Shown in pieces: positions 44,278 through 53,576 of a DNA stretch of 64,000 nucleotides (positions are counted from its first letter, which is position 1; each line of letters opens with the position of its first letter). The DNA lies in NCBI RefSeq assembly GCF_000013445.1, contig NC_007796.1:1772936-1836935 (forward strand), read 5' to 3'. The notes under the pieces are model-generated. The model did not search any database. It saw nothing but the letters and a program-made list of their open reading frames with translations, and was not told the DNA's origin. This DNA is from Methanospirillum hungatei JF-1. Lineage in GTDB: Archaea; Halobacteriota; Methanomicrobia; Methanomicrobiales; Methanospirillaceae. Both the position numbers and the translations under genes were made by a program.

Positions 44278-45825
44278 ATGAATATTCAGGTATTACGGGA
44301 ACGATATGCACAATGTTCTGGTGCACAGATCTTCGGGATCATTTTTCTTGCAGGTCTTCTTCTCCGGGTGATCCTGCCAAATCTTAAATTACTCCATCAT
44401 GATGAGGCCATCCATGCATGGTTCAGTTATGAACTCCTGACCAAAGGAGTATATCAGTATGATCCCATGTATCATGGGCCATTTCTCTATTACATCACTG
44501 CAGCGTTGTTCAGGATCTTCGGAGATTCTGATCTGCTTGTAAGACTACTCCCGGCAGTGTTTGGGTCGGCCATAATATTCCTCATATACGGGATATACAA
44601 AACCGGCTGGCTCTCGAAAAATCATGCGATCTGGGCAGCACTGTTTTTTGCTTTTTCGCCGGATATGGTATATTTTTCTCGATTTCTGCGTCATGATATC
44701 TTCCAGTTATTCTTCACCGTTCTGCTGCTCCTTGCAATCCTCGCATATATCGAATTTAAAAAACCGGGATGGGCATTTCTGGCAGGATTTGCTGCAGCAT
44801 GTGGTATGTGTCTGAAAGAGGACATGCCGGTAGCCATACTAATATTTGGAGTCTTTTTCATCGCTCTCCTCTATTTCCGTCGTATACACCTTCCGGATAC
44901 CTGGAAACGGGATCTCATTGGTACGGTTCTCATAGCGGCGGGTATAGGATTTGTCTTCTATACCTCATTCTTCAACCATCCGGAGATGTTCTTTGAGGCA
45001 CCATTCAAGGCTATTGAACACTGGACATCCATGCATGACCAGTGCAGGCTGTGTGGTCCGCCATACTGGTACCTCATCATGCTCATTCTCTATGAAATCC
45101 CTCTGCTTATCCTGGCTATATACGGCATCTGGCACTGGGGATGGAAAGACAAGGGACTGAGTCTGTTAAGAAATGTGGATCCTAAAAATCAAGGACTTTC
45201 TGACGAAAAAACTTCACTCCTGATGATCCTTCTCATCATATGGACCGGATGTACGCTGGTTTTTTATGGGTGGGTAGGAGAGAAAGTTCCCTGGCTTTTG
45301 ATTCATCAGTTATTTCCGCTCATATTTCTCGCATCCTACAAGATAGAAGGGAAAAAAGTAATCGCCGGAATTATCACCCTTCTCTTCCTGGTGGGAATGA
45401 CGATGCATGTCTGCTTCACACCTGTTGATATCAACGAACCCATCGTTCAGGTTCAGAACTCTGAGGACATGCGTGACGTCATGGCATTGATCGACACTGC
45501 AAAGACTGTAGTTGTGGCATCCGACTCCTACTGGCCGCTTCCCTGGTACTACCGGGGTGGAAGATGGGACAAGATCCTGTTTTATGGCAAAAAGGTTGAT
45601 CCGATGATGTGGAGTGGGAAGGAACCGGATCTTATCATCACCCATGATACCGACAGTTATGCATCCCTGCCCGGATATGAAAAGAGAGCGTATCACCTAA
45701 GCTACTGGTTTTCCTTGTATGACAACCAGCACCGGGCTCTGGAGTGGTACTTCCTCCGGGATGGAAAGATGGGAACGGTGAATCTTGACGTATTTGTCAA
45801 GGTAAATAATACTGACCTAAATTAA
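44278..45825 (+). CDS. Agl23-like TIGR03663 membrane glycosyltransferase-like protein
   Basis: A 515-residue multi-span membrane protein. LLHHDEAIHAWFSYELL then YDPMYHGPFLYYITAALFRI is the acidic first loop of the GT39/GT83-like TIGR03663 family, called flippase-activity-associated Agl23. The C-terminal third is extracellular and ends DVFVKVNN. TIGR03663 often co-occurs with TIGR03662 (DUF2298), and both are in this window (see 51489-53576). A role in building surface glycan from dolichol-linked sugars is the usual guess; the acceptor is unknown. Confidence 0.85.
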   Translation: MNIQVLRERYAQCSGAQIFGIIFLAGLLLRVILPNLKLLHHDEAIHAWFSYELLTKGVYQYDPMYHGPFLYYITAALFRIFGDSDLLVRLLPAVFGSAIIFLIYGIYKTGWLSKNHAIWAALFFAFSPDMVYFSRFLRHDIFQLFFTVLLLLAILAYIEFKKPGWAFLAGFAAACGMCLKEDMPVAILIFGVFFIALLYFRRIHLPDTWKRDLIGTVLIAAGIGFVFYTSFFNHPEMFFEAPFKAIEHWTSMHDQCRLCGPPYWYLIMLILYEIPLLILAIYGIWHWGWKDKGLSLLRNVDPKNQGLSDEKTSLLMILLIIWTGCTLVFYGWVGEKVPWLLIHQLFPLIFLASYKIEGKKVIAGIITLLFLVGMTMHVCFTPVDINEPIVQVQNSEDMRDVMALIDTAKTVVVASDSYWPLPWYYRGGRWDKILFYGKKVDPMMWSGKEPDLIITHDTDSYASLPGYEKRAYHLSYWFSLYDNQHRALEWYFLRDGKMGTVNLDVFVKVNNTDLN

Positions 45826-46080: not shown

Positions 46081-47274
46081 TTAAAAGAGCTCATCGTACT
46101 GATGAGCAGTTGACTTCTTCTTTGGTTTATCACGGGAGCCGAAACTGCCACCGCCGCCCTTTCCGCCACCTTTGCCGCCACGGTTCTTCATGATTCGGAA
46201 AAGAGCAAACCCAACAATTGCAACAACAATGATTCCGATAATATAGGGGATTATCCCAGACAGGTCAGGGAATTGGAATCCCTTGGGAGCGGCCTCAAGT
46301 TCTGCATTCAAATCCTGAGTTGCCGTGAATACTTCATCTGCCTTCTGATATGCTTCTTCAGCTTTTTTCCTGGCTTCAGTGTATTTACCGGCATCATAGA
46401 GCTCTTTTGCATCACTCGCGTCTTCTGCAGCAAACTCACGCTTGGTTATAATAGGAGCAAGCCGTGGATCACTTCCGAGTTCTTTTTCGGTCTTGAAGTA
46501 ATTGATCCACTCGTCAGTCTTGTCTATGGCTTCTTTTGCATCTTTAATTGCTTTCTGGGACAGACCCATGTCAAGCATCGCATAGGCATCCTTGATGTAG
46601 GTATTTGCATTCTTGATATAGATCTGGGCATTTGAATAACTTGCACCGGCTGCTGAATTCAGTGAGGTTAATGCCTCCTTTGCCTTTGCTTCAGCCTTGG
46701 AAACATCTATCCCATCAGCTTTGTTCTGGGCAATATCCTTCTCAAGTTTTGAGTAGGCATCTTTTACAGTTGAAATGTCGCCCTTCAGCTCCCCAGGATT
46801 CGTAACAAATGCTGTGACATTCTTTACGGTCTCTTTCACCCGGCCTCCGGGGGTTGCCACGTTCACCGAAACAATCTCTATTTCTTTGGAACTGTCAACC
46901 TTTGGTGCCATTCCTTTCAGATTGACTTTGACACTTTCATCGACGTTCTCATAGGAGAGTTCCCATCCGGAAAGATCAAGTTGTTTCTTACTGACCGCAG
47001 GTCTGGGATTTTCCACACCATCAAGAATGATGGAGTATGTCCAGACCGGATTTTCAAGTTCGGTTTTTAAGGATATACTCTCATCACTGGGAAAGGTCGT
47101 GCCCCCTATCGAGACAAAACTCAGCTGGAGATCTGCAGAAACATTCGATTTACCGGATTCAAGATCTCCGGAAGGCTTTACATTCACATGACCGACTTCA
47201 ACACTGGCCATTGCCGGAATAGCAATGAAACAAAAAATGATACTTAAAAAGATGATTAATGATCCAGTCTTCAT
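46081..47274 (-). CDS. CetZ-linked single-pass membrane protein with cytoplasmic tail
   Basis: A 397-residue exported membrane protein. I chose the ATG at 47274 (MKTGSLIIFLSIIFCFIAIP), 7 bases after the cetZ stop; the longer frame overlaps cetZ. The signal peptide ends at IPAMA. The outside part has a beta-rich N-half, then about 180 residues of Ala/Lys/Glu helices (KAEAKAKEALTSLNSAAGAS, GKYTEARKKAEEAYQKADEV). One membrane helix follows (IIPYIIGIIVVAIVGFALF), then a basic Gly-rich tail of about 33 residues ending HQYDELF. The operon with cetZ suggests a membrane partner; this is inference. Confidence 0.8.
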   Translation of the reverse strand: MKTGSLIIFLSIIFCFIAIPAMASVEVGHVNVKPSGDLESGKSNVSADLQLSFVSIGGTTFPSDESISLKTELENPVWTYSIILDGVENPRPAVSKKQLDLSGWELSYENVDESVKVNLKGMAPKVDSSKEIEIVSVNVATPGGRVKETVKNVTAFVTNPGELKGDISTVKDAYSKLEKDIAQNKADGIDVSKAEAKAKEALTSLNSAAGASYSNAQIYIKNANTYIKDAYAMLDMGLSQKAIKDAKEAIDKTDEWINYFKTEKELGSDPRLAPIITKREFAAEDASDAKELYDAGKYTEARKKAEEAYQKADEVFTATQDLNAELEAAPKGFQFPDLSGIIPYIIGIIVVAIVGFALFRIMKNRGGKGGGKGGGGSFGSRDKPKKKSTAHQYDELF

Positions 47275-47281
47275 AACTCCC

Positions 47282-48463
47282 TCACTCAAAGAGTGGTTCA
47301 ATACTCTCATCCAGTTTCAAAACATTCTCTTCATCAATTCTTTCTGACGTGGCTTTCGTCTCCTTTGCAATCTCGAGCAGATTCGTGACACGTGGAGCAT
47401 CTGCAATGGATGCTAAAAGAACGACAGCTGCAACATACCTGCTCTGGGCCGGATAATCTCCGCCTCGCACCTCCACACCGGCGATATTCTCCTCAACCCA
47501 GCTTTTGGCTTTTTCAATCCCTTTCCGGTCAAGATCATCAGGCGGTCCGGCAACCAGAACAAGAGCACGACTTGTGGTGGTATATTCACAGGGCAACGTA
47601 AGCCGCCCAAGCATCGCCCGTCTGACCAGAGACAAAATCCGTGAGGTCTTATCCTCACCAAGCAGTTTATCCTCAGGACGTCGTTCTTCTATCTGTTTTC
47701 TTCCGATGATCCGATCAAAGAAACTCCGGTCCTTTTCAACCGGAGCAGAATTGATAACTTCACTGATGGCATATCCGACAGAACTGATACCTCCACCCCG
47801 AAGGGTATTGATAATCTCGCTGGAATCGACGACCATCTCACCGATACCCAGCTGACCTATCTCACCTGCACGGAACAATAACCCAAACCTGCGGACTATC
47901 TCATCATTCAACCGGTCAAATGCGCCCTTGATACTCTCGCCTTCATTTTTCCAGGCGCTGTTGTCAAAAAGAATAACATTATCTGCTTCTTTTACCAGAG
48001 TTGCAAGACTTCGTGCAGCATTATAGGAATATAACCGTCCTTCTTCCGGAGCGGGGAGAATCCCCAGAACATAGACCGGCTCTTTATAAATCTTTTTCAG
48101 ATGCCGTGCAAGCACAGGCGAACCGCCTGAACCTGTTCCGCCACCAAGTCCTGATACGATGATGAATGCTTCAGTATCGCCAATACCTTTGCGGTCAATA
48201 GCATTCATGATGATATCAATCTCGTCAAAAGTAATCTGGGCACCGGTATCATTATCGGTCCCCACGCCATGACCTTTGACGCTCGTCTGACCGATCAGGA
48301 CACGATCCTCAAAATTGAGGTGTTGTAATCCCATCAGATCAGTTCTGGCTGTATTTACCGCAATAGCACGAAAACTGCTGCCATTGGTTCTATTGTCAAA
48401 CTCAATGAACCGGTCAACAATTTTGCCACCAGCCTGACCAAATCCTATAAAAAACACTTTCAT
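47282..48463 (-). CDS. cetZ: Tubulin/FtsZ-superfamily protein CetZ
   Basis: A 393-residue CetZ. MKVFFIGFGQAGGKIVDRF is the CetZ-specific opening; FtsZ has a different one. The tubulin signature is SGLGGGTGSGGSPVLARH. Other markers are VAVNTARTDLMGLQHL (T3-like loop region), GHGVGTDND and DSSEIINTLRGGGISSVGYA. CetZ1 of Haloferax controls rod shape and motility. The C-terminus ends KLDESIEPLFE, a short acidic tail of the kind FtsZ uses for partners. It is co-transcribed with the membrane protein at 46081-47274. Confidence 0.93.
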   Translation of the reverse strand: MKVFFIGFGQAGGKIVDRFIEFDNRTNGSSFRAIAVNTARTDLMGLQHLNFEDRVLIGQTSVKGHGVGTDNDTGAQITFDEIDIIMNAIDRKGIGDTEAFIIVSGLGGGTGSGGSPVLARHLKKIYKEPVYVLGILPAPEEGRLYSYNAARSLATLVKEADNVILFDNSAWKNEGESIKGAFDRLNDEIVRRFGLLFRAGEIGQLGIGEMVVDSSEIINTLRGGGISSVGYAISEVINSAPVEKDRSFFDRIIGRKQIEERRPEDKLLGEDKTSRILSLVRRAMLGRLTLPCEYTTTSRALVLVAGPPDDLDRKGIEKAKSWVEENIAGVEVRGGDYPAQSRYVAAVVLLASIADAPRVTNLLEIAKETKATSERIDEENVLKLDESIEPLFE

Positions 48464-48583: not shown

Positions 48584-49822
48584 ATGCGGATAGCAATAAT
48601 AGGAGGAGGCATATCCGGACTTGTTTCGGCATACAGGCTTTCTAAAGACCATAAAATTACAATTTACGAAAAGTCAGCAGAGATAGGGGGGCTGCTCTCA
48701 TCATACCACCGGAAGGCATATTCCATTGAGCGGTACTATCACCATTTCTTCTCAGGAGATCGGGCATTTTTACACCTTTTAGATGAATTGAACCTATCTG
48801 ATACGATACTCTGGCTCAAAGGGTCAACCGGTACATACCAAAACGGGACCATCTATCCCCTCACCACCCCCCTCGAAATACTGCTCTATCCTCACCTTAG
48901 CATATTTGAAAAATTCAGGCTCGCATTATTCACCAAAAAAGTCAAACACTTTGATCTGTCACACCTTGACACCATAAGCGCAGAGAAATTCCTTACAGAG
49001 CAGCTTGGAGAGAAAATTTACCGCTCATTCTTCAGGCCACTCCTGAATTCAAAATTTGGTCAGAATGCAGAGAAAATCTCTGCCGCATGGCTTGTCAGCC
49101 GGGTGGCCATCCGTTCGGACAGAAGTCTTGGGGGAGAGCGGCTCGGATATCTTGAGCGGGGGTTTTCATCCTTCATCGAAAGTCTTTCAAATACGATAAC
49201 CGGATATGGAGGAGAGATAAGAATAAACACACCGGTTACCAGCATACAAAAAGCCGGGGGGGAATGGTATATAAATGATGAACCATTCGATGCCGTCATT
49301 GCAACCATCGCACCCGGTCTTCTGAAAAAAACCGGTCTTGATATTCCGGATATCCCCTACCAGGGAGCGGCCTGTCTGACCATGGGGCTTGTCCGTCCTG
49401 TCACTCAGGGTATTTACTGGATTAATCTGTATGATGATGCCCCCTATGGAGCTGTCATCGGACATACCTGTTTTGCCCCAAGAGCATGGTATGGTGAGGA
49501 TATCGTCTATCTTGCATCATATTACACCGGCACGCCGCCCACCGACCTGAAGGAACGGATGATAGAAGATTTCCAGAGAAAATTTTCAGTCAGGAGTGAT
49601 GAGATACTATGGGCAGAAATGACTAGAGACCCCTATGCCGGGCCGCTGTATCTTGCCGGGTATAAAGAGCAGATGAACATGATATCAGTTCCCGGACTTG
49701 TTCTTGCCGGTATGTTTTCTGAAGAGAACTATCCGGAGCGGAGTATTGAGGGATCGGTTCGTGCCGGACTCAGGGCTGCAGAAGAGATCGTCAGGATGGA
49801 AAAGAATCCGGAAGTGACCTGA
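48584..49822 (+). CDS. FAD-dependent amine-oxidase-like dehydrogenase
   Basis: A 412-residue flavoprotein. The opening RIAIIGGGISGLVSAYRLS is the dinucleotide fold, and GGLLSSYHRKAYSIERYYHH follows. The closing motif GLVLAGMFSEENYPERSIEG is the FAD end. It resembles protoporphyrinogen-oxidase/UDP-galactopyranose-mutase-like proteins found in archaeal glycan clusters. It is the first of four genes with 0-10 base contacts to 53576, so it likely acts on a lipid-linked sugar or isoprenoid. Confidence 0.85.
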   Translation: MRIAIIGGGISGLVSAYRLSKDHKITIYEKSAEIGGLLSSYHRKAYSIERYYHHFFSGDRAFLHLLDELNLSDTILWLKGSTGTYQNGTIYPLTTPLEILLYPHLSIFEKFRLALFTKKVKHFDLSHLDTISAEKFLTEQLGEKIYRSFFRPLLNSKFGQNAEKISAAWLVSRVAIRSDRSLGGERLGYLERGFSSFIESLSNTITGYGGEIRINTPVTSIQKAGGEWYINDEPFDAVIATIAPGLLKKTGLDIPDIPYQGAACLTMGLVRPVTQGIYWINLYDDAPYGAVIGHTCFAPRAWYGEDIVYLASYYTGTPPTDLKERMIEDFQRKFSVRSDEILWAEMTRDPYAGPLYLAGYKEQMNMISVPGLVLAGMFSEENYPERSIEGSVRAGLRAAEEIVRMEKNPEVT

Positions 49823-50536
49823 GTGACAATATCAAATCCGGTAACAGTTGTCATTCCGGTGTACAACGATGTTCATGCCCTAAAAGAGGCGGTACCACGA
49901 GTTCTGCAGACGCTATCCTGCATTGCTACAGAGTTTGAACTCATCATAGCCGAGGATGCCAGCACCGATGGATCTGCTGAATTAGCAGCAAAGTTTGCCC
50001 GGGAGAGCCCACAGGTCATCCACCTTCACCGGGATGAGCGGCTGGGGAGGGGATCGGCCCTGTCTCGTGCTGCCTCAATAGCCCGTGGAGATATCTTCTG
50101 TTATTTTGATGTTGATATGGCAACCGACATCTCCCATCTTGAAGAACTCCTTGGCCGAATTACTGAAGGGTATGATCTGGCAACCGGTTCACGGCTTCTT
50201 CCGGAGAGCAGAATCATCAGAAGTTGCAGCCGTGAGATTAAAAGCAGGGGATATAACTTCCTGGTCCGGCTTATTCTGAAAAGCACCCTCTCTGATCATC
50301 AGTGCGGATTTAAGGCATTCAGAACCGAAGTGCTCAGGGACCTTCTGCAGGAGACGTGTGATACCCACTGGTTCTGGGATACCGAGATCCTTGTACGTGC
50401 CCAGCATAAAGGGCTTCGTATCGCAGAGATCCCGGTAATCTGGACAGAGGGACAGGGGACGACAGTCAGATCAGGTGATATCTGGAAGATGGGACGAGCA
50501 ATTCTCCGACTCTGGTGGCAGCTCCATGTATCGTAA
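49823..50536 (+). CDS. Family 2 glycosyltransferase
   Basis: A 237-residue GT2 of dolichol-phosphate-mannose-synthase type. VTVVIPVYNDVHALKEAV opens the fold, IIAEDASTDGSAELAAKF has the DxSxDG sugar-nucleotide motif, and FCYFDVDMATD has the DxD. The C-terminal part has RFAFQ-like DHQCGFKAFRTEVL. It starts at a GTG immediately after the previous stop. It transfers a sugar to a lipid carrier, most likely dolichol phosphate. Confidence 0.9.
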   Translation: MTISNPVTVVIPVYNDVHALKEAVPRVLQTLSCIATEFELIIAEDASTDGSAELAAKFARESPQVIHLHRDERLGRGSALSRAASIARGDIFCYFDVDMATDISHLEELLGRITEGYDLATGSRLLPESRIIRSCSREIKSRGYNFLVRLILKSTLSDHQCGFKAFRTEVLRDLLQETCDTHWFWDTEILVRAQHKGLRIAEIPVIWTEGQGTTVRSGDIWKMGRAILRLWWQLHVS

Positions 50537-51485
50537 ACTCTGTGCTATCATCTTCTCTGTTCTTCTGGCAGTAGGAATCCTGGCCGTCATGGTCATCAGA
50601 GTCTGGAATGACCTGGCCGATGCACTTGCTTATGTAAGACCGCTCTATCTTATCCCGGCATGTCTTATCTGCCTGTGTGCCTGGTTTGTCAGGGGAGGGC
50701 GGTACCAGTCCATCCTCTCGCGGATGCATGTATCCATTTCACTCATCTTTTCAACGGCCTGTATCTACATATCACAAACGGTAAACCTTATCGTCCCAGC
50801 CCGGCTTGGAGACCTGATCCGGGTGGTCCTGCTCAAGCATGATTATGATGCAACCATCTCCCAGGGTCTCTCCTCCATCATCGTGGAGCGGGTTTTTGAT
50901 ATCATATCGGTAGCAGTCCTGGGCCTTTGCGCAGTGGTCTTTGTGCTGAACGCCCCGTCCTGGGTTCTCATGCTGCTCGTTCTTCCGCTCGTGCTTGGGG
51001 GAATCTTCTTTCTGGTTCTCATCCTCACGGGCAAAGTTCAGACTGACAATAAATACATCGGGTATGTTCTGACGATGATGAATGAGATGCGGAATGCATC
51101 CCTGACTCCCCGATCCGCATGTGTTCTCGCAGTTACATCACTTGGTATCTGGATACTTGATACTGCCATCTGTTCCCTTGTTGCCCTTATGTTCGGGCAG
51201 GATATCCCTTTTTCAATCGTCCTGCTTGCAGTAGTTGCAGGAAACCTTGTAAAAGCAGTCCCCCTCACACCCGGCGGAGTCGGGACCTATGAATTTGCCC
51301 TTGCCGTCATCTTTGAACTGGCAGGGACAAGTCCGGCAGTATCCACCCTTATCGCAGTCATCGACCACCTGATTAAGAATGGTATCACCCTTATCGGAGG
51401 GGCGATCTCTATCATGTACTTAGGAGACTGGGTAATCCCCGAACTCTCTGAAAGTATTAAGAAAAGACTGAAGGATGAATCATAA
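50526..51485 (+). CDS. LPG synthase TM / AglD-like flippase family membrane protein
   Basis: A 319-residue membrane protein, starting at the ATG at 50526 (11 bases inside the GT2 gene). It has eight hydrophobic segments. SQTVNLIVPARLGDLIRVVL and GNLVKAVPLTPGGVGTYEFA are the signature of the UPF0104/LPG_synthase_TM family, which includes the C-terminal part of archaeal AglD. It may flip or bind lipid-linked sugars made by the preceding GT2. Confidence 0.9.
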   Translation: MYRKLCAIIFSVLLAVGILAVMVIRVWNDLADALAYVRPLYLIPACLICLCAWFVRGGRYQSILSRMHVSISLIFSTACIYISQTVNLIVPARLGDLIRVVLLKHDYDATISQGLSSIIVERVFDIISVAVLGLCAVVFVLNAPSWVLMLLVLPLVLGGIFFLVLILTGKVQTDNKYIGYVLTMMNEMRNASLTPRSACVLAVTSLGIWILDTAICSLVALMFGQDIPFSIVLLAVVAGNLVKAVPLTPGGVGTYEFALAVIFELAGTSPAVSTLIAVIDHLIKNGITLIGGAISIMYLGDWVIPELSESIKKRLKDES

Positions 51486-51488
51486 GGC

Positions 51489-53576
51489 ATGATTGAATCA
51501 GGACAGATTATTGCGGTATTATCCTGGCTCTTCCTTCTTTTCCTATTCCATCTCTCTCTCTATCCCTTGATAAAAGAATACCTGCCCAAAATTGCGGTCC
51601 CCGTATCCTGGACTGCGGGATTTATCCTGACCGCTCTTGCAACCTGGTATGCAGTCTTTTGTGGTCTTCCTCCCTATACTGGTCTGATCCCGATCATTGT
51701 TGCATATCTCTGCACCGGAATATTTCATAAGACGGGACATTACAAAGCCATCCCCTCAGAATGGCGCTACTACCTGCTCTTTTTCGGCGTGTTTCTTGCC
51801 ATGCTCGTCGTCAGGGCATACAATCCTGATATCAACGGGGCGGAGAAATTCATGGACCATGGATTTCTTGCATCGATTCTCAGAACGCCCCTGGTTCCCC
51901 CTCTTGACCCCTGGTTTGCCGGAGGGTTTCTGAATGTATACTACTATTTTGGTCACTGGATCATAGCAACACCGGCGATGCTCACCGGGATCCCCTCAAA
52001 CATCCTCTTTAGCCTTGCTCTCCCCACAATCGCCGCACTTTCTGCCGTCAATCTCTACGGAGTGGGACACCTGACCCTACGGCGTACCAGATTACTCCCG
52101 GTACTGGCATTTTTTGTCGTAAATCCGTACTTCATCTACCTTGGCCTTACCGGAACCAGGGCCTTTACCCTTCTCTGGGATAGCAGCAGAGTCATTCAGG
52201 ACACTATCAACGAATATCCACTCTTCTCATTTCTGTTTGGTGATGTCCATGCCCATGTCCTTGGTATCATGGCCCAGTCATTTCTGGTTCTCATGGTAAC
52301 CGCTGCGTTGGTATGCTGGAGAGATGGAACCAGGGCACGTATCTTAATTCTTCTCCTGACTGCACTCGGGCTTTCGGTAATTCCGGTAGTCAACAGTTGG
52401 GATGTCCTGATTTGGGCACCGATGATTCTGGTAACAGGCTTTTGTCTGATTGGACGTGAATATAGAGGGGCACCAGCCCTTACAATTCAGGTTGTTATGC
52501 ACACTGTGCAGACAATGATCCGGGAGCGGGGGGGACAATGGTTCCAAAAACCCGTGATTGCTGCAGGATTTTATCTCCTCCTTGTTCCGGCCCTGAGTCT
52601 GGCCCTCATCAGTCCGCTCCTCCTTGGGATGCATACCCAGGGAATTGCAGGGATTGGGTTTGTCCATACCCCGACTGATATCTGGCAGTTTATCATGGTC
52701 CATGGCTGGTTCTTTGCTGCCTTTTTATTCTCTTTCAGGTCAGAACTCAGAAAAGTCCCTTGGATCCTTCTTGCTATCTTCCCGTTCTTTCTGACCGGGT
52801 ACCTCTCCGCTGCACTTGCAACCCTGATCCTGATTTTTGTCATCAGGCGAAGATCAGGATCTGCAGATCTTCTGGCTGCAGGAGGACTTACAATTCTGCT
52901 CTTTTGTGAACTTATCTACCTGGCAGATAACATGGGAGAGGTCTATTACCGGATGAACACGGTATTCAAACTCTATATCGGTGCCTGGCTCCTCTGCGGA
53001 ACTGCTGCGGCCCTGATGATTGGAAACGAGCTGGATGCATATATCACCAGAAAACCAGGGCGGACTTCACGGGTCATCAGTGTATCTATCATAATCCTGC
53101 TCTGTCTCTGCCTGATTGTCCCCCCGGTCATCGTCTCAACCATTCACGGACCACATACCCCTACCCTGGATGGCATGGCATGGCTTTCACAATCTCATAG
53201 GGAGGATGCTGAAGCTCTTGCATTTTTACGAACACTCCCCGGTGAGCATATTATCGTGGAAGCAGCCGGGGATGACTACCAGTATACCTCACGGGTCTCA
53301 TCATTCACCGGAATCCCGACGATCATCGGATGGCAGTTCCATGAATATATGTGGAGGGGGAATTATCCGGAAGGCTGGTATGGTGAGCGGGGCAATCATA
53401 TCAGGACCATATATGAAAACCCGGACCAGACCATCCCCCTCATGGAACGGTACCGGGCAGATCTGCTCTATGTCGGCCCTGAAGAGCAACAAAAATATAC
53501 TATTTCGATACCTGCCCATGACCTTCAGGAACTCTACCGGAATCGCGATGTCGTGATCTACCAGCATCAGGCTTGA
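51489..53576 (+). CDS. DUF2298 (TIGR03662) polytopic membrane protein
   Basis: A 695-residue protein with about a dozen membrane segments. It begins LSWLFLLFLFHLSLYPL and carries FMDHGFLASILRTPLVPPLD, WFAGGFLNVYYYFGHWI and FSFLFGDVHAHVLGI, hallmarks of DUF2298/TIGR03662 (chlor_Arch_YYY). Near the end comes an outside domain (WQFHEYMWRGNYPEGWYGER). Family members accompany TIGR03663 in archaea and Chloroflexi; the function is unknown, presumed surface glycan assembly. It is 3 bases after the flippase-like gene. Confidence 0.9.
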   Translation: MIESGQIIAVLSWLFLLFLFHLSLYPLIKEYLPKIAVPVSWTAGFILTALATWYAVFCGLPPYTGLIPIIVAYLCTGIFHKTGHYKAIPSEWRYYLLFFGVFLAMLVVRAYNPDINGAEKFMDHGFLASILRTPLVPPLDPWFAGGFLNVYYYFGHWIIATPAMLTGIPSNILFSLALPTIAALSAVNLYGVGHLTLRRTRLLPVLAFFVVNPYFIYLGLTGTRAFTLLWDSSRVIQDTINEYPLFSFLFGDVHAHVLGIMAQSFLVLMVTAALVCWRDGTRARILILLLTALGLSVIPVVNSWDVLIWAPMILVTGFCLIGREYRGAPALTIQVVMHTVQTMIRERGGQWFQKPVIAAGFYLLLVPALSLALISPLLLGMHTQGIAGIGFVHTPTDIWQFIMVHGWFFAAFLFSFRSELRKVPWILLAIFPFFLTGYLSAALATLILIFVIRRRSGSADLLAAGGLTILLFCELIYLADNMGEVYYRMNTVFKLYIGAWLLCGTAAALMIGNELDAYITRKPGRTSRVISVSIIILLCLCLIVPPVIVSTIHGPHTPTLDGMAWLSQSHREDAEALAFLRTLPGEHIIVEAAGDDYQYTSRVSSFTGIPTIIGWQFHEYMWRGNYPEGWYGERGNHIRTIYENPDQTIPLMERYRADLLYVGPEEQQKYTISIPAHDLQELYRNRDVVIYQHQA

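Follow-up and report, generated by a model that had tools for sequence, protein, structure and literature searches.

In Methanospirillum hungatei JF-1 the gene that comes after the one for the tubulin-like protein CetZ encodes a secreted single-pass membrane protein, here called the partner, and we conclude that cetZ and the partner gene form a genuine and ancient functional pair. The reading favoured here, to which we assign a probability of about 0.5, is that the short cytoplasmic tip of the partner binds CetZ, tethering the cytoskeleton to the membrane and, via the partner's ectodomain, to the surface layer; both the direct contact between tip and CetZ and the tethering purpose are what we infer. 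CetZ shapes archaeal cells, and in the literature searched, which leaves most subscription papers outside, neither a description of its attachment to the envelope nor any CetZ anchor was found, in agreement with the original prediction that no anchor of this type had been described. The partner is one candidate gene for such a role. The pairing also fills a gap in the accessible part of the published survey of CetZ neighbourhoods (PMC9856176). The window analysed is a stretch of 64,000 nucleotides from the M. hungatei JF-1 genome, which is a single contig of 3,544,738 bp.

The cetZ locus of M. hungatei and the architecture of the partner

In profile searches the CetZ encoded in the window scored 235.6 bits with Pfam CetZ_C (cut-off 21.6) and 111.9 bits with the Pfam Tubulin GTPase domain (cut-off 33, E = 6.2e-32). 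Its identity is about 51–53% to halobacterial CetZ1 and 30–33% to the other CetZ-like gene that M. hungatei carries, and by pairwise identity it would thus belong to the Halobacteria-like group and not to the other methanogen CetZ group. The intergenic spacer between cetZ and the partner gene is exactly 7 bases (47275–47281), and the partner frame runs from an ATG at 47272–47274(-) to a stop codon at 46081–46083. An alternative partner of 409 aa starting from an earlier ATG is disfavoured, because the start at 47274 agrees with both the N-terminal alignment and a Shine-Dalgarno-like site. As the genes on either side of the pair (44278–45825 and 48584–49822) sit on the opposite (+) strand, cetZ and the partner gene constitute a two-gene unit. 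The positions of all features are collected in Table 1.

Table 1. Features of the cetZ-partner locus, with positions counted from the first letter of the window.
Feature	Position	Strand	Basis or remark
cetZ, 393 aa	47282..48463	(-)	Pfam CetZ_C E = 3.3e-70; 51–53% identity to halobacterial CetZ1
CetZ C-terminal hexapeptide IEPLFE	47285..47302	(-)	[IV][ED]PLFE in nearly all Methanomicrobiales
Shine-Dalgarno-like GAGGGAG	47277..47283	(-)	overlaps cetZ stop codon, 5' of partner ATG; read directly
cetZ-partner gene, 397 aa, secreted single-pass membrane protein	46081..47274	(-)	translation; orthologues directly 3' of cetZ phylum-wide
Signal peptide, residues 1–23, predicted cleavage after A23	47206..47274	(-)	hydropathy; A23 nearly invariant
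Outer beta-sandwich domain, residues 24–158	46801..47205	(-)	AlphaFold2, pLDDT mostly >90
Outer helical domain, residues 160–328, long helices	46291..46797	(-)	AlphaFold2, pLDDT mostly >90
Membrane helix, residues 342–365	46180..46251	(-)	hydropathy and AlphaFold2 helix
Cytoplasmic basic Gly-rich tail, residues 366–397	46084..46179	(-)	sequence; disordered in AlphaFold2 model
Terminal motif YDELF, local form of order-wide [WY]DEL[GFA]-COOH	46084..46098	(-)	D, E and L identical in 48/48 aligned proteins

Hydropathy analysis of the partner reveals just two hydrophobic segments, the signal peptide and a helix near the C-terminus, and the signal peptide together with a positive cluster after the helix places the tip, ending in HQYDELF, in the cytoplasm according to the predicted topology. 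The original prediction had described an exported protein with a helical outer domain and one membrane helix 7 bases beyond a CetZ that ends in IEPLFE; Pfam, hydropathy, AlphaFold2 and the sequences of both C-termini bear this out, and the outer part additionally contains a beta-sandwich. Neither the partner nor its relatives gave a Pfam or NCBIfam match above cut-off, a PDB profile search with the partner yielded chance-level matches only, and a fold search of the ectodomain against the PDB brought up nothing beyond generic beta-sandwich matches (adhesins, pilins, arrestin-like proteins), whose TM-scores were at most 0.25 over the query.

Beside cetZ, a divergent cluster at 48584–53576(+) encodes an FAD-dependent amine-oxidase-like protein, a family 2 glycosyltransferase, a flippase-like membrane protein and a large membrane glycosyltransferase-like protein, and by eye it looks like a cluster for surface glycan synthesis.

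Distribution of the gene pair

A partner was found in 187 and a CetZ in 191 of the 199 genomes of Methanomicrobiales. At no fewer than 127 cetZ loci, counted where both genes were among the matches listed, the partner gene comes immediately after cetZ in the same orientation, and the match edges are almost always 10–51 nt apart. When 20 apparent exceptions were fetched, the partner or its start stood beside cetZ in 14, and the remaining ones were two contig ends and four second cetZ copies of genus g20 (family f6; L071, L072, L075, L082). These second copies, about 68–70% identical and with no partner downstream, keep the C-terminus [AV][IV]DPLFE; each is a recent duplicate that may rely on the partner of the other copy.

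Methanospirillum is a sheathed, spiral-shaped methanogen, and a link between the pair and this cell form had been suggested. The pair is equally conserved in genera with coccoid or irregular, sheathless cells, and this suggestion is not supported.

Profile A1, an alignment of 48 partners, picked up homologues across the phylum. From a comparison with CetZ coordinates, direct adjacency is evident in 13 genomes of family f9, which we take to be the Archaeoglobaceae (members presumably including Archaeoglobus fulgidus, A. veneficus, A. profundus and Geoglobus ahangari), in the halobacterial families f13, f17, f23 and f29, and in families f10, f11, f16, f18, f19, f26, f31 and f34. The reading frames of the pair often overlap outside Methanomicrobiales. 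An adjacency that might have been limited to one genome thus holds across Methanomicrobiales, Archaeoglobaceae, Halobacteria and other families, and because it is kept across the phylum, chance would be excluded as its cause.

The halobacterial CetZ beside the partner is CetZ1, as a neighbour-linked member matches H. volcanii CetZ1 (PDB 4B46) over its full length with E = 4e-200. In named genomes the partner was found at 43 of 80 cetZ1 loci, including 12 of 12 in Haloferax, where the partner has 264 aa, a signal peptide, one C-terminal helix and a tail ending in SYDKLG, and where the two frames overlap by 32 nt. Compared with the methanogen protein, its ectodomain is shorter by about 110 residues, its tip reads YDKLG instead of YDELF or WDELG, and the long linker is absent; nevertheless, the methanogen (A1) and halobacterial (A3) profiles match over the whole length, tail included, with an hhalign probability of 99.3%. 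In most halobacterial genera the partner frame begins within the last cetZ1 codons (e.g. L240:4157-4951), and the maintenance of this 32-nt overlap suggests strong translational coupling. The partner frame of Halogranum amylolyticum (L266:4151-4567(+)) stops after 139 residues, probably owing to a frameshift or an assembly error.

Haloferax denitrificans has the genes in the order nolA - cetZ1 - partner - cofC - cofG. H. volcanii itself is not among the loci; since its cetZ1 is HVO_2204 (PMC10927574), its cofC is HVO_2202 (PMC8305020) and the partner lies between both genes in Haloferax, the H. volcanii partner should be HVO_2203. No mention of HVO_2203 was found in the literature searched, which excludes most subscription papers. 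For branches outside Halobacteria, the accessible part of the survey by Brown and Duggin (2023; PMC9856176) covers neighbourhoods of methanogen and Archaeoglobales cetZ, three of them from Methanomicrobiales, and reports few similarities; the Halobacteria-like CetZ group is absent from that set as presented there. The same part, where it treats cetZ1, names nolA upstream and cof genes, and no downstream membrane protein.

Two housekeeping genes might also have become neighbours neutrally, by chance or through shared regulation. Several Archaeoglobaceae (A. fulgidus and four further genomes read) indeed carry the partner away from cetZ, and some Halobacteria lack it; but adjacency persists in at least 10 families despite much gene-order turnover around the pair, and this, together with the motif evidence given below, leaves neutral co-location very improbable. 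Where the partner is unlinked in Archaeoglobaceae, the gene after it codes for another related membrane protein, which ends in RRRDKW or RKKDKW (L175:3281-4339(+), L177:1003-2148(-), L183:1132-2190(-)).

The C-terminal motif

All Methanomicrobiales homologues read that have a complete C-terminus end in [WY]DEL[GFA]. Profile A1 was built from proteins ending in DEL[GFA], and the homologues ending otherwise were all cut by contig ends. In a family with a mean column identity of 35% (48 aligned proteins), the D, E and L of the tip account for 3 of 8 invariant columns. In most genera just a few basic residues separate the tip from the helix (RRRRWDELG); a Gly/Lys linker of 25–33 residues with the end YDELF occurs only in Methanospirillum and in G047, which represents one closely related genus. 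A basic tail, as initially described, is present in the window protein, but the conserved element is the terminal [WY]DxL plus one residue and not the long basic tail. Elsewhere the tips read [WF]DEL[KR] in Archaeoglobaceae, mostly YDKLG in Halobacteria, and WD[RK]LG in f16 and f34, with looser forms in f10 (RKRG[IV]Y), in f11 and f19 (RW[GE]RL), and in f26. The unlinked partners of A. fulgidus and the four other Archaeoglobaceae retain the tail WDEL[KR].

At the DNA level, a pattern for WDELG followed by a stop codon was present in 166 of the 199 genomes of Methanomicrobiales, with a single occurrence in each, and the reversed pattern was almost never found. For 127 of the matches CetZ coordinates were at hand: 125 of these sit on the cetZ strand, 1078–1183 nt beyond the end of that gene, and the remaining two are at contig breaks or fragments. 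The corresponding YDELF-stop pattern (TAY-GAY-GAR-YTN-TTY-stop) occurs once in the M. hungatei genome, as the terminal motif of the partner itself. Eight paralogues of the full outer region that are located away from cetZ possess neither membrane helix nor tip, and seven paralogues consisting of the beta-sandwich only have unrelated C-termini. It follows, also from the homologues of family f12 described below, that the tip goes with CetZ rather than with the outer domain.

The position of the motif at the extreme C-terminus, after a helix and a basic cluster, is frequent for sorting signals, and the motif might be a signal for membrane insertion, sorting or turnover, with the operon just balancing expression and the partner making no contact with CetZ. 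However, the motif is missing from outer-domain paralogues that carry C-terminal anchors of their own, and WDELG-stop, with no more than one occurrence in any genome, is not a general signal. In known archaeosortase signals, furthermore, the motif stands before the helix and not after it. Little credence can be given to this explanation.

Proposed tethering, loss of the partner and rival readings

In the favoured tether reading, the signal peptide would export the partner and the single helix would hold it in the membrane, with about 300 residues (beta-sandwich and helical domain) exposed outside and the short tip inside. The tip, [R/K]-rich and then [W/Y]-D-x-L-x-COOH, would bind CetZ, probably at the filament or at a surface of the globular domain. 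The bound tip would anchor the CetZ cytoskeleton to the membrane, and the ectodomain would link the membrane-bound CetZ to the cell surface layer. Such a role resembles that of the bacterial and archaeal FtsZ tethers FtsA, ZipA, EzrA and SepF, which connect a tubulin-superfamily filament to the membrane. In those proteins the filament-binding domain is cytoplasmic, whereas the bulk of the partner lies outside and its cytoplasmic peptide comprises about 10 residues in most species; in place of a folded domain that binds the FtsZ peptide it has a short tail that is disordered in the model. Pfam, NCBIfam and PDB profile searches gave no sequence relation of the partner to FtsA, ZipA, SepF or EzrA. 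If the tether reading is true, the partner would be a tubulin-superfamily tether with its folded part outside the cell.

A membrane partner anchoring CetZ, as the original prediction had it, is favoured by the adjacency and by the invariant tip; the anticipated contact of the tail did not appear in the structure prediction. AlphaFold2 modelling of a read-through CetZ-partner fusion (L090, 62 rows), a weak test since it uses a single chain and no multimer or filament, produced no docking, and in this model both the tip (pLDDT 31–37) and the CetZ tail (pLDDT below 50) were disordered. The undocked fusion model counts against the tether, as do the looser tips of some families, the persistence of CetZ1 where the partner is gone and the finding that no CetZ residue tracks the loss.

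The partner was not detectable in 18 of 18 genomes of family f21 nor in any genome of g70 (Halorubrum-like) of family f23, and CetZ1 was kept in both; the partner is thus not essential to CetZ1. In Halorubrum loci such as L276 and L280, cofC comes directly after cetZ1. The losses in Halobacteria (f21 and f23/g70) amount to at least two events, and a replacement tether may exist in the partner-less lineages. When CetZ residues changed in both partner-less clades were sought, three weakly informative positions were obtained, none of them shared with methanogens.

These lineages also bear on the proposal that the acidic IEPLFE of CetZ pairs with the basic tail of the partner. The CetZ C-terminus of Archaeoglobaceae and Halobacteria reads EPL[FIV] or E[PS]LF. 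A PLF(E) or SLF ending survives without a partner in Natrialbaceae, in Halorubrum-like genomes and in the second g20 copy of CetZ, and the peptide therefore probably serves something else. As the basic linker is not conserved either, tail-to-tail pairing as originally stated was rejected.

A different arrangement would keep the contact between tip and CetZ and reverse its purpose, so that CetZ filaments place or cluster a surface protein (of the S-layer, the sheath or motility structures) as cargo and CetZ reaches the membrane otherwise. The large conserved outer part of the partner suits a cargo, and loss of the partner where CetZ1 is kept is as expected for a client, so that this model accounts for the losses better than the tether does. 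It would also suit the surface-structure genes in CetZ neighbourhoods elsewhere: in the accessible part of PMC9856176, type IV pilus clusters lie beside cetZ2 and Thermococcales cetZ, where envelope genes likewise adjoin cetZ, although these are multi-gene loci with another CetZ subfamily. On the other hand, a client is not obviously in need of one-to-one operon pairing phylum-wide, and the tip is kept in some lineages even after the gene has moved. The cargo model is the main rival and is regarded as unlikely.

Alternatively, the ligand of the tip might be a cytoplasmic protein other than CetZ, such as a factor of the SepF or MinD type, through which CetZ would be linked indirectly. The lack of docking on CetZ in the fusion model and the lack of a CetZ residue tracking partner loss are both consistent with another ligand, and in H. 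volcanii the placement of CetZ1 is under the control of MinD proteins (PMC11621097). Yet the motif is found beside cetZ and not in genes beside other cytoskeletal factors, and no third gene was common to the operons among the loci read, which makes an intermediate ligand somewhat more unlikely still than the cargo model.

Returning to the tether, a bolder and more doubtful version would be that a transmembrane coupler, already in the ancestor of the phylum, joins the CetZ cytoskeleton to the surface layer in an integrin-like manner through a five-residue inner motif, and that CetZ filaments shape cells through this link. Integrin-type receptors also combine a large outer domain, one membrane helix, a short conserved tail and a cytoskeletal partner; this is an analogy only, with no homology to the partner. 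Vesicles of H. volcanii contain CetZ1 as their most abundant protein (PMC10927574), which shows the association of CetZ1 with the membrane and not the cause of it. As the candidate gene adjoins cetZ1 in every Haloferax found, it is open to genetics, and the five-residue motif can be mutated.

In family f12, no CetZ_C match was obtained in five genomes and partner homologues exist there. These homologues keep the membrane helix and end in R[SAK]KL, without D-E. They are located at L239:44-961(+), L335:1536-2342(+) and in L336, and the L335 copy lies near a GrpE-like gene.
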